Assembly: GCA_028824295.1 (NCBI GenBank)
Contig: JAPPED010000021.1
Location: 1 to 64,000, forward strand
Direction of reading: 5' to 3'
DNA from: Rhodospirillales bacterium
Lineage (GTDB): Bacteria > Pseudomonadota > Alphaproteobacteria > TMED109
DNA: 64,000 bases
Shown: piece by piece, positions 30,247 to 55,989 of the stretch
Numbering within the stretch: position 1 is the first letter of the stretch
Layout: the number at the start of each line of letters is the position of its first letter
Position numbers and translations under genes: made by a program
The notes under the pieces: model-generated
The model's input: the letters and a program-made list of their open reading frames with translations, nothing else
The model's database searches: none
Told to the model about the DNA's origin: nothing

Positions 30247-32397
30247 ATGGCCGAGCGCTCGTTCGCGAAGGAAGTACAGGATCTCCGGATCGGCGCCGGA
30301 CAGGAATTCCGTGGTGAGGGAATTCTGGCGATCACCAAGGCCCTGCTGGAATGCGGGGTCGGCTACGTCGGCGGCTACCAGGGGGCGCCAGTCTCGCACC
30401 TCATCGACGTGCTTTCGGACGCGGAAGACATTCTCGACGAGCTCGGAGTCCATTTCGAAGCCAACGCCTCGGAATCTGCCGCCGCCGCCATGCTGGCGGC
30501 TTCGGTCAATTACCCGATTCGCGGTGCCGTCACGTTCAAAGGGCCGGTTGGGGCCAACGTAGCGGCAGACGCGTTGGCGAACCTGTCATCGGGCGGCGTC
30601 ATGGGTGGCGCGATGGTCATCCTCGGCGAGGATTACGGCGAGGGCTCTTCGATCATGCAGGAGCGCACCCACGCCTTCGCCACGAAGTCCCAGCTGTGGC
30701 TTCTCGATCCGCGGCCCAATCTGCCGTCCATCGTACGAACCGTGCAAAGAGGTTTCGAGCTGTCTGAGGCGTCCAATACGCCGGTGATCCTGCAGGTCCG
30801 GATCCGCGCTTGCCACGTCTACGGAGCGTTCCAGGCAGGCGACAACCAACGTCCTCCCCTCACCGTGCGCGAGGCGCTGGAGGATCCGCAGCGCCGCACC
30901 GAACGCATCACGCTCCCACCATTCACGTACCAGCACGAAATCGAGAAGGTGGCCGAGCGCATGCCAGCGGCAGCTCGCTTCATTGAGGAGCAGCGACTGA
31001 ACGAGTGTTTTGGCGGTGAAGGGGAAGTCGGGATCATCCTGCAGGGAGGCATGTACAACGGCGTCATCCGGGCGCTGCAGCGGCTGGACCTCGCCGACGC
31101 GTACGGCAAGAGCGAAATCCCACTCTACGTGCTCAACGTGACCTATCCGCTGGTAGACACGGAAGTTCTTGAATTTTGCTCCGGCAAACGGGCAGTCCTG
31201 GTCGTGGAGGAGGGACAGCCCGCCTATATCGAGGAGGCCATCGGTGCCCTCCTCTACCGGCATCAGGGTTCCAGCACGTTGGTGGGAAAAGGCACCCTTC
31301 CCATGGCCGGCGAGTACACCGGGACCGTGCTGATGGACGGAGTGACCCGGTTTCTCCGGGAATACGGGAATGGCCTTCTTCCCGAAGCTCATCGCCCGAC
31401 CAACGGCCATGCGGAAGATTCGGATGACGAGGGTCTCTCGTCTGCTGTCCCCATCCGTCCGCCCGGGTTCTGCACTGGATGCCCGGAACGTCCCATTTTC
31501 GCCGCGACCAAGCTCGTCGAAGAAAGCCTCGGCCCGCACCACATCGCCGGCGACATCGGCTGCCACCTGTTCTCAATTCTGCCTCCCTTTGAAATTGGCT
31601 CGACCACGATGGGCTACGGCCTCGGACCTGCCTCCGCCGCCGCGCTGAGCGCAAAGGGGGCGCGGCGGTCTATCAGCTTCATCGGCGACGGCGGACTTTG
31701 GCACAACGGCCTGACATCCTCCATCGGGAACGCGGTCTACAACGAGAGCGACAACGTGATCGTCGTGGTGGACAACTTCTATTCCGCCGCGACCGGCGGC
31801 CAGGATGTCCTCTCTTCCCGGGCGGACAGGGCTTCGAAGTCAACCCATCATTCGATTGCGGACGCAATCCGCGGACTGGGCGTGCGGTGGGTCAAGGAAG
31901 TCGACCGGACGTACGACGTGAAGCGGTTGAAGGACCTGCTGACCGATGCGCTAACGACGGAGGAAAAGGGCCCGAAAGTCATCATTGCCTCCTCAGAGTG
32001 CATGCTGAACAAACAGCGGAGGGAACGGCCGCAAAGGAACACCGCCATCAAGGAAGGGAAACGGGTGGTCGTTCCGCGGTTTGGGGTGGACGAGGACGTC
32101 TGCACGGGCGACCACGCCTGCATGCGCTTGTCGGGCTGCCCGTCGCTTTCCGTGAAGAGTTTGGACGACCCTCTGCGCGATGACCCTGTGGCCTACATCG
32201 ACGAAAGCTGCGTCGGCTGCGGCAATTGTGGCGAAGTCGCGGACGCGGCGGTGCTGTGCCCTTCGTTCCACCGGGTCGACGTCGTCCACAACCCCAGACC
32301 GAGGGACCGTTTCCTGTCCCGGGTCTCCGATGTCTTCATCGGTGCCCTTCAGCAATGGCGTGACCGGCGCCGGCTTGTCTTCAAGGAGCGAGGATGA
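30247..32397 (+). CDS. iorA: Indolepyruvate ferredoxin oxidoreductase, alpha (TPP/ferredoxin) subunit
   Basis: Oxidatively decarboxylates aryl-pyruvates to acyl-CoAs using TPP and Fe-S clusters. The 716-residue protein has the pyruvate-binding N-domain (YVGGYQGAPVSHLIDVL, FKGPVGANVAADALANL), a PPGFCTGCPERP cluster region, and the TPP site ISFIGDGGLWHNGLTSSIGNA. A C-terminal ferredoxin domain carries CTGDHACMRLSGCP and CVGCGNCGEVADAAVLCP. In the first of these the second cluster Cys is Asp (CxxDxxC), which suggests a [3Fe-4S] or Asp-ligated cluster. It overlaps iorB by four bases (ATGA), so the two subunits are coupled. Confidence 0.9.
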   Translation: MAERSFAKEVQDLRIGAGQEFRGEGILAITKALLECGVGYVGGYQGAPVSHLIDVLSDAEDILDELGVHFEANASESAAAAMLAASVNYPIRGAVTFKGPVGANVAADALANLSSGGVMGGAMVILGEDYGEGSSIMQERTHAFATKSQLWLLDPRPNLPSIVRTVQRGFELSEASNTPVILQVRIRACHVYGAFQAGDNQRPPLTVREALEDPQRRTERITLPPFTYQHEIEKVAERMPAAARFIEEQRLNECFGGEGEVGIILQGGMYNGVIRALQRLDLADAYGKSEIPLYVLNVTYPLVDTEVLEFCSGKRAVLVVEEGQPAYIEEAIGALLYRHQGSSTLVGKGTLPMAGEYTGTVLMDGVTRFLREYGNGLLPEAHRPTNGHAEDSDDEGLSSAVPIRPPGFCTGCPERPIFAATKLVEESLGPHHIAGDIGCHLFSILPPFEIGSTTMGYGLGPASAAALSAKGARRSISFIGDGGLWHNGLTSSIGNAVYNESDNVIVVVDNFYSAATGGQDVLSSRADRASKSTHHSIADAIRGLGVRWVKEVDRTYDVKRLKDLLTDALTTEEKGPKVIIASSECMLNKQRRERPQRNTAIKEGKRVVVPRFGVDEDVCTGDHACMRLSGCPSLSVKSLDDPLRDDPVAYIDESCVGCGNCGEVADAAVLCPSFHRVDVVHNPRPRDRFLSRVSDVFIGALQQWRDRRRLVFKERG

Positions 32398-33890
32398 GCA
32401 ATTCCGACATCGTCAAGATCGCGATCCTCGCTGTTGGCGGACAGGGCGGAGGCGTGCTCACGGGCTGGATCGTTGCGCTGGCTGAGGCCAACGGATGGCG
32501 GGTGCAGTCGACCGCCGTTGCGGGGGTGGCCCAACGCACCGGCGCCACGATCTACTACCTCGAAATGTGTCCGTCGGGGGAGCAGGCCCCGGTATTCGCG
32601 CTCGCCCCGGCAGCCGGCGATGTCGATGTCTTGATTGCCGCCGAGCTGATGGAAGCCGGGCGCGCAGTGCTCCGGGGGTTCGTGACGCCCGACCGCACGA
32701 CGTTGATCGCGTCCACGCACCGGATTCATGCCGTTTCGGAAAAGGTAGTGCCGGGCGACGGGCAGGCACCTGAGGACCGGGTCTTCGCTGCAATGGAAAG
32801 GTCGGCCAAGCGCGTCATCGCCGCCGATTTCCAGCGCATGGCGGTAGAGGCCGGCTCCGTCATTTCCGCCAGTCTCTTCGGGGCGCTGGCGCGAGCCGAC
32901 GTGCTGCCATTTCCGCAGCAGAGCTTTGTTGGCGTGGTTCAGGACTCCGGCCGCGGCGTCGAAGCGAGCGTCCGGGCATTCGAAGCGGCCCTAGCGGACA
33001 ACGAGCCAACCGATCAGGCAACGGAAATGGGGCGAATGCCGCCGCGGGGCCCGAATCACCTGGTGGCGGGATGGAACGCGCTTGAGGCCCGCGTGTCGGC
33101 GCTGCCCGGACCCGTACGGCAGATGGCGGATACCGGTCTCCGGCACGTGGTCGATTTCCAGGACCTGTCGTACGGCAAGGAGTATCTGGACCATCTCGAC
33201 CGGTTCGTGTCGCGTGACGACGGGGCCTTCGTCCTGTCAGTCACCGCCGCCAAGTACCTCGCCAATGCGATGGTCTACGACGATGTCATCCGGGTGGCAG
33301 ACCTGAAGACCCGCCGGGCACGTTTCACCCGCGTGCGGGAGGACATGCAACTGGGAGCCAGTGACGTTGCCCATATCACCGAGTTCATGCATCCGCGGGT
33401 CGAGGAGGCATGTGGAACCCTGCCGGCACCGCTGGGTGCCTGGATCGAAGCCCGGCCCCCGCTAGCCCGGTGGCTCGATCGGCGGATCAACAAGGGACGA
33501 AAGGTTCGGACAAGCGGCCTGTTCTGGTTTGCCCTGCTCTACGTTGTTGCAGGCCTGAAGCGCTGGCGGCGCGGCACCTACCGCCACCGGATCGAGACGG
33601 AGCATCTCGACGCCTGGATAGACCTGGCATTGACCACGGCATCCGATGACCGGGCGCTCGCTGCCGAGGTCCTCGCCTGCCGGAGACTGATCAAGGGGTA
33701 TTCCGATACCCGGGTGCGCGGCGAGTCCAAGTTCGACGCCGTGCTGCGGGCATTGCCCCTGCTGAAGGACCGCGGCGACGCGGCTGATGTGCTGCGCCGG
33801 TTGCGCGAAGCAGCCTTGCAGGACGAACACGGACACGCGTTCGATGCCGAGCTTGAAGCGTTCGCATCCGTCGCACCGGCCTCGCCCTAG
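32394..33890 (+). CDS. iorB: Indolepyruvate oxidoreductase, beta subunit with DUF6537-type C-terminal region
   Basis: Partner of the preceding alpha subunit. Residues 5-200 form the gamma-type domain of 2-oxoacid:ferredoxin oxidoreductases: KIAILAVGGQGGGVLTGWIV, AVAGVAQRTGATIYYLEM and DVLIAAELMEAGRAV. The remaining 300 residues form a mostly helical extension (LSYGKEYLDHLDRF, SVTAAKYLANAMVYDDVIRVADLKTR, KVRTSGLFWFALLYVVAGLKRWRRGTYRH) like that seen in long proteobacterial versions. Total length is 498 residues, against about 200 for the archaeal IorB. The pair may feed aryl-acetyl-CoA metabolism and could link to the aromatic cluster 12 kb away. Confidence 0.88.
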   Translation: MSNSDIVKIAILAVGGQGGGVLTGWIVALAEANGWRVQSTAVAGVAQRTGATIYYLEMCPSGEQAPVFALAPAAGDVDVLIAAELMEAGRAVLRGFVTPDRTTLIASTHRIHAVSEKVVPGDGQAPEDRVFAAMERSAKRVIAADFQRMAVEAGSVISASLFGALARADVLPFPQQSFVGVVQDSGRGVEASVRAFEAALADNEPTDQATEMGRMPPRGPNHLVAGWNALEARVSALPGPVRQMADTGLRHVVDFQDLSYGKEYLDHLDRFVSRDDGAFVLSVTAAKYLANAMVYDDVIRVADLKTRRARFTRVREDMQLGASDVAHITEFMHPRVEEACGTLPAPLGAWIEARPPLARWLDRRINKGRKVRTSGLFWFALLYVVAGLKRWRRGTYRHRIETEHLDAWIDLALTTASDDRALAAEVLACRRLIKGYSDTRVRGESKFDAVLRALPLLKDRGDAADVLRRLREAALQDEHGHAFDAELEAFASVAPASP

Positions 33891-45078: not shown

Positions 45079-45519
45079 CTAGCCGTCCGCCTCCGCGAGG
45101 TACCCTTCTGCGTCGAGCGGCCAGAAGGGGTTGTACGCAACCTCCCAGACGTGTCCATCCGGATCGGCAAAATAGCCGGAATAGCCACCCCAGTAGGCAT
45201 TCTCCGGCTCCTTCAGGACGACGGCCCCCGCCGCCACGGCGGCAGCAAACGCTCCGTCCACCTCGTCAGGTGATGGGTAATTCTGCGCGAGCGTCATGGC
45301 TCCGGTGCCGAGTCGGATTCCGGGTCGTCCCTGATCCGCTGCCAGCGCGTCCATTCCGATCAGGCCAAGCATCAAGCCCTTTAACCGATAAAATCTCACC
45401 TCCGGCAACGTCTCCGCTGCCTGCCAACCAAGTGCTTCGTAGAAGGCGCTGGATCGTTCGATGTCGTCCACGCCGAGCGAAATCAGGGTCACCCGTTGGG
45501 CGGTCAATCTGAGGGCCAT
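45079..45519 (-). CDS. VOC (glyoxalase/bleomycin resistance) family protein
   Basis: A 146-residue single VOC domain made of paired beta-alpha-beta-beta-beta units. It begins RVTLISLGVDDIERSSAFYEALGW and ends GYSGYFADPDGHVWEVAYNPFWPL, the typical metal-Glu strand. Metal-ligand positions are not fully canonical, so it may be an enzyme or a binding protein. Two close ATGs exist; the inner one (MALRL) is six bases from GGGAGA and is preferred. It is divergent from hpaB across a palindromic site and may share regulation with that cluster. Confidence 0.82.
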   Translation of the reverse strand: MALRLTAQRVTLISLGVDDIERSSAFYEALGWQAAETLPEVRFYRLKGLMLGLIGMDALAADQGRPGIRLGTGAMTLAQNYPSPDEVDGAFAAAVAAGAVVLKEPENAYWGGYSGYFADPDGHVWEVAYNPFWPLDAEGYLAEADG

Positions 45520-45569
45520 CGTCATTCTCCCGACCGGCCGGTCGTCAGGCGAAAACACGGTTTCCCGAA

Positions 45570-45598
45570 TTGACACTAATAGCCCGGCGACTTAGGGT
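45570..45598 (+). promoter_or_regulatory. Candidate sigma-70 promoter of the hpa-like operon
   Basis: TTGACA is followed after 17 bases by TAGGGT. The -35 box is a full match and the -10 box is weak. Transcription would begin at about 45605, at the edge of the palindrome listed next. Confidence 0.45.
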
Positions 45599-45605
45599 CA
45601 CATGA

Positions 45606-45617
45606 TTTGATATCAAA
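45606..45617. promoter_or_regulatory. Palindrome TTTGATATCAAA, candidate MarR operator
   Basis: A perfect 12-bp palindrome 12 bases upstream of the hpaB start codon and just downstream of the candidate promoter. AT-rich perfect palindromes with a TGATATCA core are typical of MarR-family repressors of aromatic catabolism. A MarR gene ends this cluster. A repressor here would block transcription start of hpaB. Confidence 0.55.
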
Positions 45618-45629
45618 CTAGATTGCAGG

Positions 45630-47084
45630 ATGACGACAAGAACCGGTGCCGAATATGTCAGTGGCCTGCGCGCCGACGGCCGCGAGGTCTGGCTGGGCGG
45701 AGAACGGGTGCAGGACGTGACCGAGCACCCGGCGTTCGTGGGCTCGGTTCGAGGCGTATCCGGATTCTTCGATTGGCAGCACCTGCACGCGGGGGATTGC
45801 ATCTTTGCCGATCCGGTGTCGAAACAGCCCACCGGCATCAGCCATCTCATTCCGCGAAGCGCCGACGATCTGCTCCGTCGCCACACTGGCCTGGAACAAC
45901 TGGCGCGTTACAGCATGGGGATGCTGGGACGCACACCGGACTACGTGAACCTTACGTTTGCGGGCTTCGCTGGTCAGCCAAGTGTCTGGTCTGCAAACGG
46001 CAATGCACAGGGTGCGGAGAACCTGGTCGCGTTTCAGCGCCACGTCGCCGAGAAGGACCTAGCACTGACCCACACGATCATTCACCCCACCGTGGACGGG
46101 CGACTCCCTCCGTACGACGGCGTCAACGGAGAAGTGGCCCTCAGGAAGGTGTCTGAAACCAGCGAGGGAATCGTCGTCCGGGGAGCCCGGATCCTGGCCA
46201 CGCTCGGACCGTTCGCTGACGAGCTGGCGGTCTATCCGGGCCAGCCTATCCCGAAGGATCGTGACGACGTGGCACTGGTGTTCTCGATTCCATTGTCCAG
46301 CCCAGGTCTCAAGATCATTTGCCGCGATCATTATGGGCTCGATGCCGACCCCTTCGACAAACCCTTCTCGTCCCGTTTCGACGAGCAGGACGCTTTCGTC
46401 GTGTTCGACGACGTCGAAGTACCGCGAGACCGCATCTTCCTGGACGGCGATCCCGCGACCTACAACGCCGTGATGGCCCGGGGGTGGGTGGGCAACATCA
46501 TGCAGCAGACCTGCATACGGGCGATGGTAAAGCTGGAATTTGCCTATGAGCTCTGCTGTCGCATGGCGGACGCGATCGGCCAAAGCCGCCGGCCGGACGT
46601 AATGCAGATGCTGGGGGAGATCTGGAGCTACGCCGAACTCACCCGGTCCGCAGTACGAGCGGCAGAAGCCGACGCACATGAATTCGCGGACGGCACGTGG
46701 TTCTGCAGCGAAGCGCCCTTCCGGGCGCTTCGCCCGACCCTGCCGGCGTGGATGCCCCGGGTGAACGAGGTCATCAAGCGCATCGCGTCACACAATCTGC
46801 TGGCGACGCCTTCAAGAGCGGGACTCGACCATCCCGACCTCCGCCCCTGGCTCGACCGCTACCTGCCGGGTGCCGGCGACATTGACCCGGAAGCACGAAG
46901 CCGCCTGTTCCGGACAGCCTGGGATTTTGCCGGTTCCGCGCTCGGGGGGCGCATGGAACTGTACGAGCGCTACTACCTCGCTTCCGCCGCGCGCGCCTAT
47001 GCGCTGGCCCACCTGGGCGCCCAGAACGAACGCGAGTGGGCCCAAGTCCCGGCATTCTGGTCGCACCTGGACGCCGCCCCCTAG
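45630..47084 (+). CDS. hpaB: 4-hydroxyphenylacetate 3-hydroxylase-family FADH2-dependent monooxygenase
   Basis: The oxygenase component that hydroxylates a phenol ortho to the OH, using FADH2 from a separate reductase. The 484-residue protein has the family start TGAEYVSGLR...VQDVTEHPAF, NLTFAGFAG, ALTHTIIHPTVDGR, VVRGARILATLGPFADELAVYPG, DEQDAFVVFDDVEVPRDRIFL and GWVGNIMQQTCIRAMVKLEF. No HpaC-type flavin reductase gene is found in the window, so reduced flavin must come from elsewhere. It is the first gene of hpaB-hpaE-hpaD-(FAH)-ligase. The substrate is likely 4-hydroxyphenylacetate, given hpaE and hpaD next to it. Confidence 0.9.
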   Translation: MTTRTGAEYVSGLRADGREVWLGGERVQDVTEHPAFVGSVRGVSGFFDWQHLHAGDCIFADPVSKQPTGISHLIPRSADDLLRRHTGLEQLARYSMGMLGRTPDYVNLTFAGFAGQPSVWSANGNAQGAENLVAFQRHVAEKDLALTHTIIHPTVDGRLPPYDGVNGEVALRKVSETSEGIVVRGARILATLGPFADELAVYPGQPIPKDRDDVALVFSIPLSSPGLKIICRDHYGLDADPFDKPFSSRFDEQDAFVVFDDVEVPRDRIFLDGDPATYNAVMARGWVGNIMQQTCIRAMVKLEFAYELCCRMADAIGQSRRPDVMQMLGEIWSYAELTRSAVRAAEADAHEFADGTWFCSEAPFRALRPTLPAWMPRVNEVIKRIASHNLLATPSRAGLDHPDLRPWLDRYLPGAGDIDPEARSRLFRTAWDFAGSALGGRMELYERYYLASAARAYALAHLGAQNEREWAQVPAFWSHLDAAP

Positions 47085-47088
47085 ACAG

Positions 47089-48552
47089 ATGTCGAGGCAC
47101 CTTCGTATCGCCTCCGTCGATGTCGACACACGGCACTGGATTGGCGGGCAGCGAATTGCTTCGTCCGACACGTTCGAACTGCTCTCGCCCATTGACCAGC
47201 AGCCGCTTGGCGAGATCTGCGCAGCCTCTGCAGGCGAAGTGGACGCGGCGGTCCGGGCGGCGCGAAACGCGTTCCCGGAATGGGCAGCCCTAGGACCGAC
47301 AGGCCGCAGACCGATCCTGGAACGCCTGGCGACGCGGATTCGCCATCACACGCAAGACCTTGCCATTGTCGAAACCCACGACAATGGATCCCTGCTCATC
47401 GGAAACGAGAAGAACATCGTGGCGAGGTCCGCGCACAACATTGCGTTTTTCGCCGAACTTGCGTCGCAGATCGACGGCGAGGTCATCACCGGCGACACCG
47501 TCGACAACCACGTTCGCTACGAACCCGCCGGGGTGGCGGCGCTGATCACGCCCTGGAACGCGCCGTTAATGCTGAGCACATGGAAGGTGGGTCCGGCCCT
47601 GGCGGCCGGCAACACCGTGGTACTCAAACCGCCGGAATGGGCTCCGCTCACCTGCTCACTGCTGGCCGATCTGGCAAGTGAGGCCGGTCTGCCTCCCGGC
47701 GTGCTGAACGTTGTGCAGGGCACTGGCGGCGAAGCCGGCGCTTCCCTGGCGGCGCACCCGGACATCGACCGCATCAGCTTTACGGGCTCACCCGAAACGG
47801 CTCGCCGGATCGGCCAGGCCGCGGCCGCGTCGTTGACGCCGGTCAGCTTCGAGCTTGGCGGCAAGTCGCCGTTCATCGTGTTTGCGGATGCCGACGCCGA
47901 TGCAGCCGCGCGAACCATCGCCCACCAGTACATCAATGCCGGACAGGTATGCCTCGCCGGAACCCGCGTGCTCGTGGAACGGAGCATCGCCGAGCCACTG
48001 CTCCGCAAGGTGCAGGTTGCGACGGCGAAGCTGCCCGTCGGTGACCCTCGGTCGCGGGCAACCCGCGTCGGCCCGCTGATCCATTCGCAGCAGCTTGCGC
48101 GAGTGCACGGTTACGTGGAGCGCGCCTCGGCAAACGGCGCTCGGCCGGTGTTCGGGGGGCGTCCGCATGCTTTCGCCGAGCTCTACTACGAGCCGACCCT
48201 CCTGGTCGACGTTGCACCCGACGACGAGATCTTCCAGGAAGAGGTGTTCGGTCCCGTGCTTACCTGGAACGTGTTCGATGACGAGGAAGAGGCGCTTTTG
48301 CTCGCCAATGCCACACGTTACGGGCTCGCCGCCATGGTCTACACGTCGGACCAGGCCAAGGCCAAGCGGATGGCCGCCGCCATTGTCGCGGGCACCGTGT
48401 GGGTCAACTGCTTTTTCGTTCGCGACCTAGCCGCCCCGTTCGGTGGCGCGAGGATCTCGGGGATCGGTCGCGAGGGCGGACGTTGGAGTTTCGATTTCTT
48501 TTGCGACGTCAAGAATGTAGTCATGCAAAAGGAAAGCTTCGGGAGCCCGTAG
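47089..48552 (+). CDS. hpaE: Aldehyde dehydrogenase, HpaE-like (carboxymethyl-hydroxymuconic semialdehyde dehydrogenase)
   Basis: Oxidises the ring-cleavage semialdehyde of homoprotocatechuate to the diacid. The 487-residue protein has all aldehyde dehydrogenase elements: ALITPWNAPLMLSTWKVGPALAAGNTVVLKPPEWAP, FTGSPETARRIGQ, Glu255 in FELGGKSP and the nucleophile Cys288 in NAGQVCLAGTR. The end FGGARISGIGREGGRWSFDFFCDVKNVVMQ is HpaE-like. The ATG lies 4 bases after the hpaB stop; the frame is open far upstream inside hpaB, which I ignore. Only a one-base gap separates it from hpaD. Confidence 0.9.
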   Translation: MSRHLRIASVDVDTRHWIGGQRIASSDTFELLSPIDQQPLGEICAASAGEVDAAVRAARNAFPEWAALGPTGRRPILERLATRIRHHTQDLAIVETHDNGSLLIGNEKNIVARSAHNIAFFAELASQIDGEVITGDTVDNHVRYEPAGVAALITPWNAPLMLSTWKVGPALAAGNTVVLKPPEWAPLTCSLLADLASEAGLPPGVLNVVQGTGGEAGASLAAHPDIDRISFTGSPETARRIGQAAAASLTPVSFELGGKSPFIVFADADADAAARTIAHQYINAGQVCLAGTRVLVERSIAEPLLRKVQVATAKLPVGDPRSRATRVGPLIHSQQLARVHGYVERASANGARPVFGGRPHAFAELYYEPTLLVDVAPDDEIFQEEVFGPVLTWNVFDDEEEALLLANATRYGLAAMVYTSDQAKAKRMAAAIVAGTVWVNCFFVRDLAAPFGGARISGIGREGGRWSFDFFCDVKNVVMQKESFGSP

Positions 48553-48553
48553 C

Positions 48554-49429
48554 GTGGGTGAGATCGTAAGCGCAGCGGTGGTCGGTCACGTCCCCACCGT
48601 CATGCTGGAGGAGGACGTCCGGCGGAGACTCGGAGGCAGGGGACGGGACACGACCTTGGTCGAGGGGTACCGGCGCCTGAAAACGCACTTCGAGGCCAAG
48701 GCGGTCGATTGCTGGGTGGTCTTCGATACCCACTGGTTCACCACAACCGAACACGTCATTGCAGGTGCCCGGCATCACCAGGGCGTCTACACCTCGGAAG
48801 AAGTGCCCAGGGTCATTCACGAACTTCCTTTCGACTACGCCGGCGCCCCGGAACTTGCCGAGGCTATCCGGTGCGTGGCAAAGGAACGGCGCATCAGGAT
48901 GACCAACGTCACCACGCCGACGCTGCCTCATCACTATCCCACGATCAATCTCGTCCATCACATGCGCCGTGACGAGAGAATCCTGTCCACCGGCGTCTGT
49001 CAGACCGCAGAGCTCGACGACTATCTCGCTTTCGGCGAAGTCATTGCCGCCGCGGTGGCGCGCACGCCGGCCCGGGTCGCCCTGCTCGGGAGTGGTGGCC
49101 TGTCGCATAGATTCTGGCCGTTGCAAGCCCTTTTCGATCATCAGGACTACGATCCAAGCAACGTCATCACGCCTGAAGCGCAGGCCGCGGACCGCCATGT
49201 GCTGGAATGCTGGGAACGCGGCGACCACGCTGCGGTTTGCGATTTCTACCCGGAGTACCGTCGCCATGGGCCGGAAGGACGTTTCGCCCACTACCTGATG
49301 CTGCTGGGCGCCATCGGCGGACGCGCCTGTAAGGCCCGCGGCAAGCGGTACTCGGCCTACGAGAATTCGATTGGCACCGGCCAGGTCCATGTGGTTTTCG
49401 ATGTAGGGAACCAGCAGGCCGTCGGTTGA
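48554..49429 (+). CDS. hpaD: Homoprotocatechuate (3,4-dihydroxyphenylacetate) 2,3-dioxygenase, type III extradiol
   Basis: A LigB-superfamily Fe(II) dioxygenase that opens the catechol ring. The 291-residue protein has SAAVVGHVPTVML with the first metal His, VVFDTHWFTTTEHV, TTPTLPHHYPTINLVHHM and LLGSGGLSHRFWP with catalytic His. The C-terminal RYSAYENSIGTGQVHVVFDV is typical of HpaD. The start is GTG one base after the hpaE stop. It is followed by 190 bp without a clear gene before the FAH-family gene. Confidence 0.92.
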   Translation: MGEIVSAAVVGHVPTVMLEEDVRRRLGGRGRDTTLVEGYRRLKTHFEAKAVDCWVVFDTHWFTTTEHVIAGARHHQGVYTSEEVPRVIHELPFDYAGAPELAEAIRCVAKERRIRMTNVTTPTLPHHYPTINLVHHMRRDERILSTGVCQTAELDDYLAFGEVIAAAVARTPARVALLGSGGLSHRFWPLQALFDHQDYDPSNVITPEAQAADRHVLECWERGDHAAVCDFYPEYRRHGPEGRFAHYLMLLGAIGGRACKARGKRYSAYENSIGTGQVHVVFDVGNQQAVG

Positions 49430-49620: not shown

Positions 49621-50559
49621 GTGAACGTCCTCGATGGTCCGCGTCGGGAGCGACGCCGCGTGCTGCTCGAGGGTCGAGCACAGTGGTCCGAACCGGAGGG
49701 AGACAGGCTCGCGCTGTCCGACGGTCGCCGGATACCGGAACACGAGGCAGTCTATTTGCCTCCTTGTGAGCCCAGCAAGATCATTTGCGTGCACCTGAAC
49801 TACCGGTCGCGCGCCATCGAATTCGGGCGCGATCTCGAGGGCGAAACCCCGACCTACTTCTCGAAACCGGTGAGCGCGCTCAACGTTCATCGCGGTGACC
49901 TCGTGCGGCCGGTTGGTTGCCACTGGCTCAACTACGAGGGAGAGATCGCTGCGATCGTCGGGAGGCCGATGAAGAACGTGTCCGGCGAGGAAGTCTGGGA
50001 GCACATCGCGGGCTTCACCCCTGCCAACGACATCGGCGCGCATGATTTCCGCGGCACTGACGCCGGCTCCATGCTGCGGGTCAAGGGCATGGACGGCTTT
50101 TGCCCGATCGGCCCGGGAATCGTGAGCGGTGTCGACCTGCGGAACTCAGGACTTCGCACCTATCTCAACGGCCGAATCGTCCAGGAAGGTCCTGTTAGCG
50201 AGATGATCTGGGGAATCGACTATCTCCTCGCGGATCTGAGCCGCCACATCACGCTGCTGCCGGGCGACATCGTACTGACAGGCACGCCGTGGCACTCGCG
50301 GCCGATGGCGGTCGGCGACGTCGTCGAGGTCGAGATCGACGAACTCGGCCGCCTTTCCAACACCGTGGTGGAAGGTCCGGCCCCAAGGCAGGCCGTGGGC
50401 CATCAGCCCGACAACAGCAAGGGGGTCAGGGCGGTAGCGCTGGGCAAGGACTACCACCGCATGAAGGACGAAGGCTACGGCGTCGAGCCCGCGGACTACT
50501 TCAGCGTCCGCGACGAATTTCTGCGTCGCAACCGGGAGGAAGGGCCAGAGCGTGCCTGA
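49621..50559 (+). CDS. hpaG: Fumarylacetoacetate hydrolase-family protein, HpaG-like isomerase/decarboxylase
   Basis: Acts on the ring-cleavage acid: decarboxylation of 5-oxopent-3-ene-1,2,5-tricarboxylate and/or isomerisation of the resulting dienoate. The 312-residue single FAH domain has KIICVHLNYRSRAIEFG, PTYFSKPVSALN, the metal Glu pair in LNYEGEIAAIVGR, GFTPANDIGAHDFRG, KGMDGFCPIGP and GDIVLTGTPWHSRPMAVGDVVEVEI. E. coli HpaG is a two-domain fusion; this is a single domain. The GTG start follows GGGAG. Eight bases overlap the next gene. Confidence 0.83.
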   Translation: MNVLDGPRRERRRVLLEGRAQWSEPEGDRLALSDGRRIPEHEAVYLPPCEPSKIICVHLNYRSRAIEFGRDLEGETPTYFSKPVSALNVHRGDLVRPVGCHWLNYEGEIAAIVGRPMKNVSGEEVWEHIAGFTPANDIGAHDFRGTDAGSMLRVKGMDGFCPIGPGIVSGVDLRNSGLRTYLNGRIVQEGPVSEMIWGIDYLLADLSRHITLLPGDIVLTGTPWHSRPMAVGDVVEVEIDELGRLSNTVVEGPAPRQAVGHQPDNSKGVRAVALGKDYHRMKDEGYGVEPADYFSVRDEFLRRNREEGPERA

Positions 50560-51799
50560 CCCCTGTGCGCCCGGCATCGGGGAGTTGGGCCACCATGAAC
50601 CGGCACTCAGGGACGCGATCGACCGTGCACGATGCGAGATTCCCCTGTATGCCGAACTCCACCGCAATACGAGATCTCTCGATCTGCGCGCGCTGCCCAG
50701 CTGCAGCAAGTCCGACCTGACCGACCTGGGTCCGCTGCCGCTGTCCGCCCGCCCGCTGTCGCAGATGTATCGGGTATCAGCAACATCCGGCACCACCGGT
50801 TCGCGCCTGTTGATCGGCTTCACGGAAGGCGACTGGCAGGCGATCCGGAAACAGTACCGCTGGGTGGCGAAATGCATCGGCATCGGGAACACCGATGTCC
50901 TGCTGAACACGCACGGCGGGGGGCTCTGGATCGGCGCTCCGTCACTCGATGAACTGGCGCATTCCTGCGGTGCCGCCACCGTGCCTTGCGGGCCGACGGG
51001 GGCAGCTCAGGCCATCGAATGGCTTCGGGAGTTGCCGGTGACACTGATCTCGGCCACCCCCTCCTATATGCGTGTACTCGCCGAAACGGCTGCCCGTGCC
51101 GGAGATGACCTAGAGCGGCTCGACCTCAGGATGGGCCTGCTCGGCGGAGAGGGATCGAGCGTCTCCCTGAAGCGGAGCACCTCGCGCGCATTTGGGCGTG
51201 GCTTTCACTGGCAGGAGTTGTATGGGGCGACCGAAACCGGCGGACCGATCCTGGCGTTCGCACCGCCGGCGAAGCCGTTTGGCGGTCGACTGAACATCAA
51301 CACCGAGTACTTTGTGGTGGAACTGCTTCATCCCGACGTGGATGAACCCGTTGCGGCCGGTGAGGTCGGTGAAGTCACGCTGAGCACGCCCTACCGCGAA
51401 GGCACGGTACTGCTTCGATACCGAACGAGGGATCTCGCGGTATCGGTGCCCGCAGAACGTGATTCGTCGGGCTGGCCCCAGATTTCGGCCCTTGTCGGGC
51501 GCGTGGACGACGCCATCAAGGTGCGCGGCGCCCTCGTCTATCCGAGCGTGATCGAAGACGTGCTGGTCGGACAGTTGCGCCAAGGCGCGGAGTGGCGCAT
51601 CGAGGTAGACAGGAAGCAGGCCGCACACGACACGATCGCTGTGCGGTACGAGCACCCGGACGATTCTCTCCAATCCGGGCTCTTTGACGACTTGTACCGG
51701 CGCCTCGGGGTCAGACTGTGTCTCGAGGCCGTCCCGCCCGACACGTTCCCGCGGTTCAGCGGCAAGGCCGCCCGGGTCGTGGACAGGCGCGCGGACTGA
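50552..51799 (+). CDS. AMP-forming acyl-CoA ligase, PaaK (phenylacetate-CoA ligase)-like
   Basis: An adenylate-forming enzyme of 415 residues. It has the P-loop YRVSATSGTTGSRLLIGFT, the ATP-binding ELYGATETGGPILAF, RYRTRDLAVSV, and the hinge and C-terminal subdomain VGRVDDAIKVRGALVYPSVIEDVL. This is the layout of phenylacetate-CoA ligases, which activate aryl acids. The product would be an aryl-acetyl-CoA or a CoA ester of a pathway intermediate. Its position after an hpaG-like gene is unusual, since the homoprotocatechuate route uses free acids. Confidence 0.85.
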   Translation: MPDPCAPGIGELGHHEPALRDAIDRARCEIPLYAELHRNTRSLDLRALPSCSKSDLTDLGPLPLSARPLSQMYRVSATSGTTGSRLLIGFTEGDWQAIRKQYRWVAKCIGIGNTDVLLNTHGGGLWIGAPSLDELAHSCGAATVPCGPTGAAQAIEWLRELPVTLISATPSYMRVLAETAARAGDDLERLDLRMGLLGGEGSSVSLKRSTSRAFGRGFHWQELYGATETGGPILAFAPPAKPFGGRLNINTEYFVVELLHPDVDEPVAAGEVGEVTLSTPYREGTVLLRYRTRDLAVSVPAERDSSGWPQISALVGRVDDAIKVRGALVYPSVIEDVLVGQLRQGAEWRIEVDRKQAAHDTIAVRYEHPDDSLQSGLFDDLYRRLGVRLCLEAVPPDTFPRFSGKAARVVDRRAD

Positions 51800-51972: not shown

Positions 51973-52554
51973 ATGGCTGAACCGATCCAGACAGGCCCCG
52001 CTGCGACTGATTCACCTGATCAGCTCTCGCGAGCCGCGACATTCGAAAGGCACGCCCTCGCACGCCTAGCCGAGGAAGTGGAGACCCAGGTCGACCCGGC
52101 GGTGTTCGCCGCTGCGTTCGATCTCTTCCGGGCCGCCAACCGCTTGATGTACGACTTCGAAGCGAACGTTCACCGACCGCTCGGAATGTCGTGGGCGGGC
52201 TTCAGGGTGCTCTTTTGCACGTGGATCGAAAACGAAGTCGAGCCGCGCGAGCTGGCGAGGCTGTGCGCGGTATCCAGGGGCACGGTATCCAGTGTCCTGA
52301 ACACGCTCGAGCGCGACGCACTCGTCAGCCGCCGGAAGCAATCGGCGGACAGGCGGGTGGTGACGGTGATGATCACCGACAGGGGTCGCCGACGCGTAAA
52401 GGAAGCGTTTGAGCTCCAGCATGCCCGGGAGCGCCAATGGCTGGGGGCCCTCGATCGGGAGACCATCGCCGGTCTCGTGGCACTGCTCCGACACCTGCTC
52501 GAATTGCCGAGACCGGAGATCCGGGCTGCATCGTCCGCCCGGAAGACCCCGTAG
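51973..52554 (+). CDS. MarR-family transcriptional regulator
   Basis: A 193-residue winged-helix dimer-forming regulator. The N-terminal helix is AFDLFRAANRLMYDFEANVHRPLGMSWAGFRVLF, the recognition region ELARLCAVSRGTVSSVLNTLERDALVSRRKQSADRRVVTVMITDRGRRRVKEAF. Families of this kind repress aromatic catabolism genes and release DNA on binding the aromatic acid or CoA ester. The ATG follows AGGAAGG; the frame upstream is longer but lacks conserved residues. The TTTGATATCAAA site before hpaB is the likely target. It is the last gene before the convergent TRAP genes. Confidence 0.88.
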   Translation: MAEPIQTGPAATDSPDQLSRAATFERHALARLAEEVETQVDPAVFAAAFDLFRAANRLMYDFEANVHRPLGMSWAGFRVLFCTWIENEVEPRELARLCAVSRGTVSSVLNTLERDALVSRRKQSADRRVVTVMITDRGRRRVKEAFELQHARERQWLGALDRETIAGLVALLRHLLELPRPEIRAASSARKTP

Positions 52555-52758: not shown

Positions 52759-54117
52759 TTAGCCAGACAACGCCTGCGGGAGCCAAAGCGCGAGCACGGG
52801 AAAGGCCAGGAGCAACCCCACGCGCAGCAGTTCGGCGCAGAAGAACGGGGCGACGCCACGGAAGATCTCGATCATCGGCGTGTCCCGGGCCAGGGCCGAG
52901 ATGACGAAGGCGTTCATCCCTACCGGTGGTGTAATCAGCCCGAGTTCCACCACGATGAGCGCAAGAATGCCGAACCAGATCTTCAAGTGCTCGGTTGACA
53001 TGCCGAACCCAGCCTCGTCCGCCGTCATGTAGAGCCCACCGTTGAGGTCCACGAGTACCGGCCAGAAGAACGGTATGACGAGCAGGATCATGGACAGGCT
53101 GTCCATCAGGCAGCCGAGGAAGATCAGTGCCAGCAGGAGGAGCACCAGTACCACCATGGGTGCCATGCCCGTCGCAAGGATCCACTCGGCCGTCGCCTGC
53201 GGCAGTCCGATGCGCGACATGTAGATCTTCAACAGCTCCGCACCGAACAGGATCAGGTAGATCATTCCGGTGGTGCCGGCGGTCTCGCGTAGCGCCTCCA
53301 CCATCTCCGCCCGGCGGATCTCGCGAGTCCAGGTGCCATAGAGCCAGACCAGCGCCACGCCGACAGCGGCGGCGGGTGTCGGGTTGTAAAAGCCCGCGTA
53401 GATGCCGCCTAGGACGATTCCGAAAATGGCCAGCACCGGTACGACACCCATCGTTGCGTCGCGGAACTCCGCGGCATCCACTCCTTCGTGACGCGGACCG
53501 GCCTCGGGCCGAATGGCGACGTAGATAGCAATGGTCAGCAGGAACAGCAGAACCGCCAGGACCCCCGGCAGCAATGCCGCGGCGAACATGGTGACGATGT
53601 TCGCCTCGACGATGATCGCGTAGATGATGAGGACGACCGACGGCGGGATCAGGATGCCAAGCACCCCGCCCGCGGCGAGGGAGCCGGTCGCGAGTGCCCC
53701 CGAGTAGCGGTAACGCTTGAGTTCGGGCAACGCGACCCGACCCATGGTCGAGGCGGTGGCAAGGGACGAGCCACAGACTGCGCCAAAGCCCGCGCAGCCG
53801 GCGATCGCGGCCATCGCCGTGCCGCCCCTGAGCCAACCAAGCCAGGCGTTGGCCGCGCGGAACAGGGCCATGGAAAGCCCGGCCTTGCCGGCAAGCGCAC
53901 CCATCAAGACGAACATCGGCACGACTGACAGGTCGTAGATCGAGAATTGCCCGTAAGCGAGGGTCTTGAGCTGATTCAAGACCAGCGCAGGCCCGTCGAC
54001 GAATGCGATGCCGACGCCGCCCACCAGAATCATCGCGTAGGCGATGGGCATGCGGATGGCAATCAACGCGGCGAGAGCAACGAGCGAGCCCACGCCAAGG
54101 AGGATCGGTTCAGCCAT
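52759..54117 (-). CDS. dctM: TRAP transporter large permease (DctM type), hpa-associated
   Basis: A 452-residue multi-helix permease. Features include LIAIRMPIAYAMILVGGVGIAFVDGPALVL, SVVPMFVLMGALAGKAGLSMALFRAANAWLG, GSSLATASTMGRVALPELKRY, ATGSLAAGGVLGILIPPSVVLIIYAIIVEANI, FLGCLMDSLSMILLVIPFFWPVL and LGLITPPVGMNAFVISAL. The ATG giving MAEPILLG overlaps the dctQ end by 8 bp. With dctQ and dctP it forms a complete TRAP system convergent with the aromatic cluster, so aromatic-acid uptake is a reasonable guess. Confidence 0.92.
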   Translation of the reverse strand: MAEPILLGVGSLVALAALIAIRMPIAYAMILVGGVGIAFVDGPALVLNQLKTLAYGQFSIYDLSVVPMFVLMGALAGKAGLSMALFRAANAWLGWLRGGTAMAAIAGCAGFGAVCGSSLATASTMGRVALPELKRYRYSGALATGSLAAGGVLGILIPPSVVLIIYAIIVEANIVTMFAAALLPGVLAVLLFLLTIAIYVAIRPEAGPRHEGVDAAEFRDATMGVVPVLAIFGIVLGGIYAGFYNPTPAAAVGVALVWLYGTWTREIRRAEMVEALRETAGTTGMIYLILFGAELLKIYMSRIGLPQATAEWILATGMAPMVVLVLLLLALIFLGCLMDSLSMILLVIPFFWPVLVDLNGGLYMTADEAGFGMSTEHLKIWFGILALIVVELGLITPPVGMNAFVISALARDTPMIEIFRGVAPFFCAELLRVGLLLAFPVLALWLPQALSG

Positions 54118-54631
54118 CTCGCGTCTGACCGGCAGCTCCGCGCGCATTCTCGACCAGTGTGATCGCGGCCGCGGCGACCAGCAGCACAAGGGAAAGCACG
54201 ATAGGTATGAAGCCTATCCAAACAGGTACTTGCATGATCGCCGTGACGTAGTTGTACTCCTTCTGATCAAGGAGGCCGGCGTACATTCGCCAGAGAAGCA
54301 GCACGCTGAAGAGCAGCGCGACGACTGAAGCCAGCAGCTTGAATAACGAGAGTGTCCGTGGGCCAACGCCGGAGGTGAATATGTCCGCCGTCACATTGGC
54401 TCCGGTGAGTTCGCAGTAGGGCAGGAAGGCGAAAGCCGCGACGGCGATGCCCATCTGGGTGATTTCAAAATCTCCCGGGAAGGGAACCCAGACCATGCCG
54501 CCGACGACCGAGGCGACATGCATCACCACGACGACCAGGACGATCAACCCGCCAAACAGTGCCCATGCATCGATGACGGCGGCAACCGCGCCAGAAAGTC
54601 CCGAGCGGCCCGCGCGGGCGGCAATTGCCAC
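54110..54631 (-). CDS. dctQ: TRAP transporter small permease (DctQ type), hpa-associated
   Basis: A 173-residue membrane subunit. Helices: AVIDAWALFGGLIVLVVVVMHVASVV, ITQMGIAVAAFAFLPYCEL, LFKLLASVVALLFSVLLLWRM and VPVWIGFIPIVLSLVLLVAAAAITLV. LTGANVTADIFT matches the conserved DctQ segment after helix two. The GTG start shares its G with the dctP stop (TAGTG), which argues for tight coupling; the frame is open upstream but reads into dctP. Confidence 0.88.
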   Translation of the reverse strand: MAIAARAGRSGLSGAVAAVIDAWALFGGLIVLVVVVMHVASVVGGMVWVPFPGDFEITQMGIAVAAFAFLPYCELTGANVTADIFTSGVGPRTLSLFKLLASVVALLFSVLLLWRMYAGLLDQKEYNYVTAIMQVPVWIGFIPIVLSLVLLVAAAAITLVENARGAAGQTRDG

Positions 54632-55671
54632 TAGTTCGCCCTGGAGTTGACCGCGATCTGCCCGCGCGCCTTGCGTACCAGTGCCGCGCCGTCGATTCCC
54701 TGCGACGAGACCTCCTCTATCCACCGGTCGACCACCGGAGCGAGCGCGGTACGGAAGGCCCGGGTTTCCTCTTCGCCCAGGGTGACGTGGGTGTTGCCCT
54801 GGTCGGTCGCAAACTTGATCCCGAAATCGTCGGTCGTGCGCCAGATCCGACCCACGTCACCCCACCAGTCGCGACCGGATGCGTCCCGAAAGGCCTGCTG
54901 GATCTCCTCCGGCAGCCCATCCCACCGCCGCTTGTTCATCGAGACCTGGAAGACAACCGTGCCAAAGCGTTCTTTCTCGACACCCTCGATCTGGTAATCG
55001 GTCTGCTCGTGGATCTTCAGCGGCGGAATGATCTCCCAGGGAATAAGCGCCCCGTCGACCACGCCTTTCTGCAGCGACGGTGGCAGATCCGGTACCGGCA
55101 TCGCCACGGGAATCGCGCCGAGCGCCTCGATGATCCAGACACCAGTGCGGGAGGGAATGCGCAGCTTGGTGCCGACCAGCTCGCTTGGTCGGCGAACCGG
55201 CATGTCCCGCATGTGGAGGCCCATGCCCGCGTGAACATGCAGGAACATCACCTCGACGCCCTTGTAATCCTCGGCTAGGTCACTCTCGAACAGGTCGTGC
55301 AGCGCGAGGTTCGTGGCTACCGGATCGTTCTTGAAGACCGTTGGAAGTCCGAAGACTTCGGAACGCGGGAACGAACCGGGTGTATATCCGTTGACCGTCC
55401 AGACCAGATCCACGACGCCATCGCGCACCTGCTGGATGAGTTCGGGCGGGCGACCCCCGAGGGTCATCGCCGGAAAGATCTCGATCTTCACGCGGCCGCC
55501 GGATCGTTCCTCCACTGCCCTTGCCCACGGCTCCAGCATTTCCGTCTGCGCCGGTGCCTTTGCGCCGAGAAAGTGATGCAGCTTGAACGTGAAATCCTGC
55601 GCCTGGACCGCCGTGGAGATGGTCAAGGCAGCGACGGCGACGAGCGCCGTCTTGCGCAGACGTGGGTGCAT
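54631..55671 (-). CDS. dctP: TRAP transporter solute-binding protein (DctP type), hpa-associated
   Basis: A 346-residue periplasmic binding protein. The signal peptide is LRKTALVAVAALTISTAVQA. LEPWARAVEERSGGRVKIEIFPAMTLGGRPPELIQQVRDGVVDLVWTVNGY is the family start. The ligand Arg region is LVGTKLRIPSRTGVWIIEALGA, and SLQKGVVDGALIPWE follows. The 55671 ATG is preferred over nearby ones since GAGG lies seven bases upstream. Gene order dctP-dctQ-dctM, with overlaps, is a single operon. The ligand is likely an organic or aromatic acid. Confidence 0.9.
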   Translation of the reverse strand: MHPRLRKTALVAVAALTISTAVQAQDFTFKLHHFLGAKAPAQTEMLEPWARAVEERSGGRVKIEIFPAMTLGGRPPELIQQVRDGVVDLVWTVNGYTPGSFPRSEVFGLPTVFKNDPVATNLALHDLFESDLAEDYKGVEVMFLHVHAGMGLHMRDMPVRRPSELVGTKLRIPSRTGVWIIEALGAIPVAMPVPDLPPSLQKGVVDGALIPWEIIPPLKIHEQTDYQIEGVEKERFGTVVFQVSMNKRRWDGLPEEIQQAFRDASGRDWWGDVGRIWRTTDDFGIKFATDQGNTHVTLGEEETRAFRTALAPVVDRWIEEVSSQGIDGAALVRKARGQIAVNSRAN

Positions 55672-55989
55672 CATCTTGCCTCGCAACGCGTGTGGACAGT
55701 TCCAACGATCTTATTGGACCCTCTGCAAAGGCGGGAACCAAATCATCCTGGCACTAGGTTCCCGACGCCTGCCGGTCACTGATGCCGCGACCCCAACGAT
55801 CACCGCAGGCAACGGAACATTGCGAGCGCCTGGAGACCGGAAACACGCGCCTCGACCGGACAGCGGCAGCACGTGCGTGGGTCGAAGCCTTCAAAGGGCC
55901 GAATGTCCCTCGTGAACCTCGGGTCTGGGGGCCCGGTAGCCCGAGGAATTCTCACGGCCAGCCGACGGGGCGGACAGGTGGACTTCGTC

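Follow-up and report, generated by a model that had tools for sequence, protein, structure and literature searches.

Known operators of MarR proteins in aromatic degradation

HpaR, which regulates the hpa cluster of E. coli W and Yersinia pseudotuberculosis, is a MarR-family protein with a palindromic site at the core promoter. As described in PMC7180172, one HpaR site in Y. pseudotuberculosis overlaps the −10 of hpaG1, site 2 is centred at −8 and the operator motif is TTAA-N4-TTAA. BadR of Rhodopseudomonas palustris, a MarR protein of benzoate degradation that according to a review table can both activate and repress and responds to a CoA thioester (PMC10458429), has a site quoted as ATTTGAT-N4-ATCAAAT (PMC13118786), so that TTTGAT/ATCAAA half-sites were already on record for an aromatic-degradation MarR. 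In the table of the same review, CoA thioesters are ligands of several such regulators (PMC10458429), and for B. subtilis PchR PMC4992311 places one site over a −10.

The locus described here lies in a 64-kb stretch of DNA from a Rhodospirillales bacterium (the window; positions 1 to 64,000 of contig JAPPED010000021.1), whose assembly, G000, comprises 3,024,113 bases (3.02 Mb) in 35 contigs. It resembles the HpaR systems, as the sources above present them, in combining a MarR-family gene, an hpa-type cluster and a palindrome at the core promoter, but the site reads TTTGATATCAAA rather than TTAA-N4-TTAA, and only one is seen in the window against two in Yersinia. With the quoted BadR site it shares the TTTGAT and ATCAAA half-sites in the same order, whereas the 4-bp spacer of BadR is missing. 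What the locus does have is the general layout of a MarR-type operator, a palindrome at the promoter of a marR-linked gene, its perfect part measuring 12 bp where MarR operators are usually 16–20 bp according to the review (PMC10458429).

An hpa-like gene cluster that ends in a marR gene

Six plus-strand genes make up the cluster. The proposed first gene of the operon encodes an HpaB-like flavin monooxygenase (45630..47084; PF11794, PF03241; TIGR02309 at 308.4 bits, cut-off 480.2) and is followed by an HpaE-like aldehyde dehydrogenase (47089..48552; PF00171; TIGR02299 at 506 bits, cut-off 638.35), for which we chose as start the ATG 5 bp past the hpaB stop. Next come a LigB-type extradiol dioxygenase (48554..49429; PF02900; HpaD model TIGR02298 at 168.8 bits, cut-off 315.95), an HpaG-like member of the FAH family (49621..50559; PF01557; HpaG-C model TIGR02303 at 183.6 bits, cut-off 276.4) and a PaaK-like aryl-CoA ligase (50552..51799; PF00501, PF14535; TIGR02155 at 157.4 bits, cut-off 646.3). 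The FAH-family gene, whose start codon is GTG in the window, has ATG in that position in two congeneric genomes (G002, G005). The HpaB, HpaE, HpaD and HpaG-C homologues all score below the NCBIfam equivalog cut-offs, so the cluster is not a canonical hpa operon; since the enzymes nevertheless resemble these four families, ‘hpa-like’, the name given in the first-pass annotation, is the right label.

At the end of the row stands the gene of the proposed repressor (51973..52554, plus strand), assigned to the MarR family by alignment, by PF01047 (35.6 bits against a Pfam cut-off of 24.6) and by fold; its ATG at 51973 is conserved across four congeneric genomes. The best-scoring NCBIfam model for this protein is HpaR (TIGR02337), whose cut-off of 121.2 bits it misses with a score of 41.3, and judged by these scores it is a relative of HpaR, HpaR proper being excluded by the curated cut-off. 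Its AlphaFold monomer model (pLDDT 86.4) has the MarR winged-helix fold: the 50 PDB matches listed (Z 15.7–18.3) are mostly titled MarR-family regulators and include CouR, PcaV, NadR with 4-hydroxyphenylacetate and the HpaR–DNA complex 7el3 (Z 16.4, rmsd 1.7, 135 residues). Likeness of a modelled fold says nothing about the ligand or the DNA site of the protein. The marR gene had been put forward as the only regulator gene in the window, and no other DNA-binding regulator domain came up in the 32 of 50 coding-like ORFs scanned with Pfam or NCBIfam, which is the scope within which that statement holds.

Convergent with marR are the TRAP-transporter genes dctM, dctQ and dctP (52759–55686), whose order is kept in G002, G004 and G005 and which may serve the cluster as its uptake system. 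Elsewhere in the window, two adjacent genes at 30247–33890 encode a TPP enzyme C-terminal domain and a POR domain with DUF6537 respectively; we take the pair to be a look-alike of the fused indolepyruvate-type ferredoxin oxidoreductases.

A perfect palindrome just past the presumed −10

Upstream of the hpaB-like gene, a −35-like TTGACA (45570–45575, plus strand) with a 6/6 match to consensus is followed after a 17-bp spacer by TAGGGT (45593–45598, plus strand), the presumed −10. The perfect 12-bp palindrome TTTGATATCAAA, the proposed MarR operator (45606–45617), begins 7 bp past TAGGGT, and a further 12 bp separate it from the ATG at 45630. On the other side, a VOC/glyoxalase-family ORF (PF00903) starts at 45519 or 45525 on the minus strand and is therefore divergent from the hpaB-like gene. 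The coordinates thus agree with the layout first read from this DNA, a TTGACA-N17-TAGGGT promoter with a palindrome between it and hpaB, and with the placing of the site between divergent genes. The term ‘promoter-overlapping’ needs qualifying, in that the palindrome overlaps neither hexamer and sits instead at the presumed transcription start: given its distance from the −10, it would span about +1 to +12. The operators of SlyA, E. coli MarR, FabT and AdcR are similar in form.

Against the sigma-70 pattern of two hexamers 16–18 bp apart, the −35 matches at 6/6 positions and is invariant, at fixed spacing to the palindrome, in each of the six genomes in which we found this hpaB (see below). 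The −10 matches TATAAT at 3/6 positions only, which is why a consensus scanner called no promoter in 45300–45800, and it varies, reading TAGGGT in the window, CAGGAT in G410 and TCACAT in G408. With so weak a −10, an activator could be needed.

Palindromes as such are not enriched here, the window holding 26 perfect even ones of at least 12 bp where a first-order Markov model predicts 29.6. Among them, TTTGATATCAAA alone has at least 60% A+T, a class expected 0.53 times per 64 kb and about 0.0009 times per 105 bp. A genome scan for further copies, which the first-pass annotation had called for, revealed no other exact one anywhere in the 3,024,113-base assembly. For the 18-mer TGATTTGATATCAAACTA around the palindrome, the next-best place, on contig C18, has three mismatches, one of them in the core, and was not found in the relatives. 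We therefore rejected a wider regulon, the exact copy being unique in G000 and the C18 place lacking a counterpart in relatives. By itself the palindrome is weak evidence; conservation is strong evidence and the main argument against chance.

A position in the 5′ leader, where the palindrome would fall, also suits a site that acts in RNA as a hairpin. A perfect 12-mer permits no loop, however, and the leader folds worse than its shuffles (z +1.09; 177 of 200 shuffles at least as good), and we rejected this explanation as highly improbable.

The site is conserved with hpaB within the genus

Our genus sample comprised seven genomes, four with hpaB (G000, which carries the window, G002, G004 and G005) and three without (G001, G003 and G006). 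In the former, this hpaB is 96–100% and the MarR 91–100% identical, and TGATTTGATATCAAACTA stands exact before hpaB in all four. In the latter three, neither hpaB nor the MarR was found, nor was TGATTTGATATCAAACTA with up to three mismatches. Over the four genomes 45593–45622 is 97% invariant, compared with 57–70% in comparable noncoding stretches (45540–45569, 57%; PaaK–MarR gap, 70%; MarR–DctM, 64%; upstream of DctP, 64%); the LigB–FAH gap, at 28%, gives a figure spoilt by Ns in G004.

Lying between two divergent genes, the site might instead control the VOC/glyoxalase gene. That gene is missing from G004, where the upstream DNA is unrelated as far as GAATTGACA and the block is kept all the same; the element therefore belongs to hpaB. 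G408 and G410, two genomes outside the genus, likewise have other DNA upstream. Contradicted by these three relatives, the VOC gene as sole target was rejected and is the least probable explanation that we considered; in the species of the window the site may act on hpaB and the VOC gene alike.

Conservation beyond the genus at fixed spacing

We scanned named genomes with the MarR alignment and retained 80 of 93 relatives, the best-scoring ones. Among them are three further alphaproteobacterial loci from metagenome-assembled genomes (L097, L098 and L099, in G408, G409 and G410) with a MarR of 78–80% identity. In G410 (hpaB 83%, MarR 78%) the palindrome is exact (12/12), TTGACA is present and the spacing is identical, in the midst of diverged flanks: only 7/17 positions of the spacer, 6/12 of those past the palindrome and 28/100 of those upstream match the window, as do 117/230 fourfold-degenerate sites of hpaB. 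In G408 (hpaB 82%), TTGACA and TTTGATATC occur at unchanged spacing and the palindrome is retained at 9/12 positions, its last three bases, i.e. the outer half of the right arm, being changed; by eye, a new palindrome, ATATCA-TT-TGATAT, can be read at the altered site. Upstream of hpaB, the neighbouring DNA differs from that of the window in both.

The placing of marR also varies. In G410 it follows the FAH gene at a distance, with an opposite-strand molybdopterin oxidoreductase gene in between from which it is divergent (L201:11690-13810), unlike its placement in the hpa row of the window. In G408, hpaB and marR are on separate contigs, and the marR contig (L097) has a molybdopterin oxidoreductase neighbour as well (by eye). 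G409 has the MarR, with no close hpaB (best 33%) and no exact site.

Altogether, of the six genomes in which this hpaB was found, 6/6 have TTGACA and TTTGATATC, 5/6 the full palindrome and 6/6 the MarR, and TTTGATATC was found within 300 bp upstream in 0/28 distant HpaB loci outside the genus among the matches listed. An hpaB above 80% turned up in just two of 114 genomes around G410, namely G408 and G410 itself. We regard the block as very probably a functional cis-site. Conservation of the core promoter only (TTGACA, the −10 and the initiation region), with the palindrome unread by any regulator, would account for the invariant TTGACA in all six genomes and for a palindrome at the start site; it is very improbable nonetheless, because perfect symmetry over 12 bp is kept while the −10 varies and the flanks diverge.

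Which regulator may read the site

In our main reading, to which we give a probability of about 0.7, the cluster's own MarR has the palindrome as its operator. This agrees with the original proposal that it is the MarR operator of the cluster: the site, hpaB and the MarR occur together in 6/6 genomes and are all missing from the three congeners without hpaB, the exact site is unique in the genome and persists before hpaB even with a different upstream neighbour, and MarR homologues are divergent from hpaB in 13/74 actinobacterial loci (see below). Counting against it are G408, with TTTGATATC only, a LysR gene beside hpaB and marR on another contig, and G409, with the MarR but neither a close hpaB nor the exact site.

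The block could instead be the operator of a regulator encoded elsewhere (another MarR, a LysR, TetR or GntR protein), the MarR of the cluster acting on other sites. G000 has four places with a MarR domain above the Pfam cut-off, that of the window included, and in the loci of the actinobacterial MarR homologues the half-sites are arranged differently. A LysR-like box is T-N11-A; all six sites can be read as RTC-N9-GAT, and a LysR-family gene (L200:7748-8800; G408:C172) is divergent from hpaB in G408, the genome that has lost half of the right arm, where the site was possibly taken over by another regulator. Yet RTC-N9-GAT occurs often (41 times on a single strand of the 64-kb window) and leaves the conservation of ATCAAA in five genomes unexplained, the other genomes hold nothing close to the G408 LysR (best match 34%; no match in G000 at E 1e-15), and the MarR is the regulator found in 6/6 genomes. 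We consider a regulator encoded elsewhere unlikely, at roughly one chance in five.

If the MarR of the cluster is the regulator, a dimer would occupy TTTGATATCAAA, roughly positions +1 to +12 relative to the hpaB promoter, and the bound protein would block RNA polymerase or its escape, keeping the cluster off. By analogy with known operators, a position just past the −10 fits repression via such a block, and in the circuit that we infer the MarR binds here, represses rather than activates, acts on co-transcribed genes and responds to a ligand of the pathway. An aromatic acid of the pathway or its CoA thioester would bind the MarR and release it from the DNA, whereupon the hpaB-like, aldehyde dehydrogenase, LigB, FAH and CoA-ligase genes would be expressed; the PaaK-like ligase in the cluster makes a CoA ligand as plausible as the free acid. 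In this genus marR stands last in the same gene row and would come under the same control, as feedback.

The same hexamers in actinobacterial homologues

Judged by names, 74 of the 80 retained MarR-relative loci are actinobacterial. In 13 of these 74, the MarR homologue (38–43%) is divergent from an HpaB homologue (34–37%). The one such cluster that we scored with NCBIfam, L103, is above the HpaB-1 and HpaE cut-offs. Without recourse to the window, this links the MarR subfamily with clusters of the hydroxyphenylacetate type. In L115, an ORF between hpaB and marR is flavin-reductase-like, scoring below the flavin reductase cut-offs.

We counted motifs upstream of marR in 79 loci (the 74 actinobacterial ones and five on plasmids). 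ATCAAANNTTTGAT (ATCAAA-NN-TTTGAT), which has the two hexamers of the window site in the opposite arrangement, occurs there exactly in 17/79 and with up to one mismatch in 26/79, compared with 0/79 in a downstream control stretch, and the arrangement of TTTGATATCAAA was found upstream of marR in 0/79. Of the 13 hpaB-divergent loci, searched to 2.6 kb upstream, 11 have ATCAAANNTTTGAT with up to one mismatch; L120 has it with two mismatches, and in L107 it was not found. These loci (e.g. L103 and L115) are like the window in having a homologous MarR (38–43%), an hpaB neighbour and the same hexamers in a conserved palindrome, and unlike it in that the hexamers are everted with a 2-bp spacer and marR is divergent from the enzyme genes instead of ending their row. 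The candidate site paired with the L115 MarR, for example, is ATCAAAGCTTTGAT, as against TTTGATATCAAA for the MarR of the window. In the other direction, ATCAAANNTTTGAT with up to one mismatch is absent from the contig of the window and has two one-mismatch places on other contigs of G000. By eye, no such hexamer site lies just upstream of marR in L097 or L099. Among the literature matches listed for the exact strings of the palindrome and of the actinobacterial motif, there was no paper on a MarR operator.

Not every member of the subfamily goes with the hexamer. Six Streptomyces loci with the FAH gene just before marR (L118, L126, L128, L142, L164 and L169; MarR 41–49%) lack TTTGAT, and of these L169 alone has a single ATCAAA; in nine others (L136–L140, L155, L159, L160 and L170) ATTGTTA-N6-TAACAAT is conserved before marR.

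That one MarR subfamily reads both the everted ATCAAA-NN-TTTGAT of actinobacteria and the abutted TTTGAT-ATCAAA of these Alphaproteobacteria is, from the motifs, a tentative and rather doubtful suggestion; one of the two dyads may be mis-drawn. It is mainly this opposite arrangement of the hexamers that keeps our confidence in MarR binding from going beyond the value given above.

Implications

An ordinary, well supported arrangement, a local repressor circuit of known type, is most likely. The locus, from a lineage represented here by metagenome-assembled genomes only, provides a directly testable candidate regulator–operator pair of aromatic degradation. ATCAAANNTTTGAT, as it stands upstream of marR (L100–L173), is likewise a ready operator candidate for the actinobacterial hpa clusters. 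If the MarR binds its proposed site, comparison with the actinobacterial homologues could show how MarR operators change arrangement, and if both arrangements are truly read by one subfamily, the topology of the operator would have been inverted without loss of the linkage between regulator, half-site and target gene.
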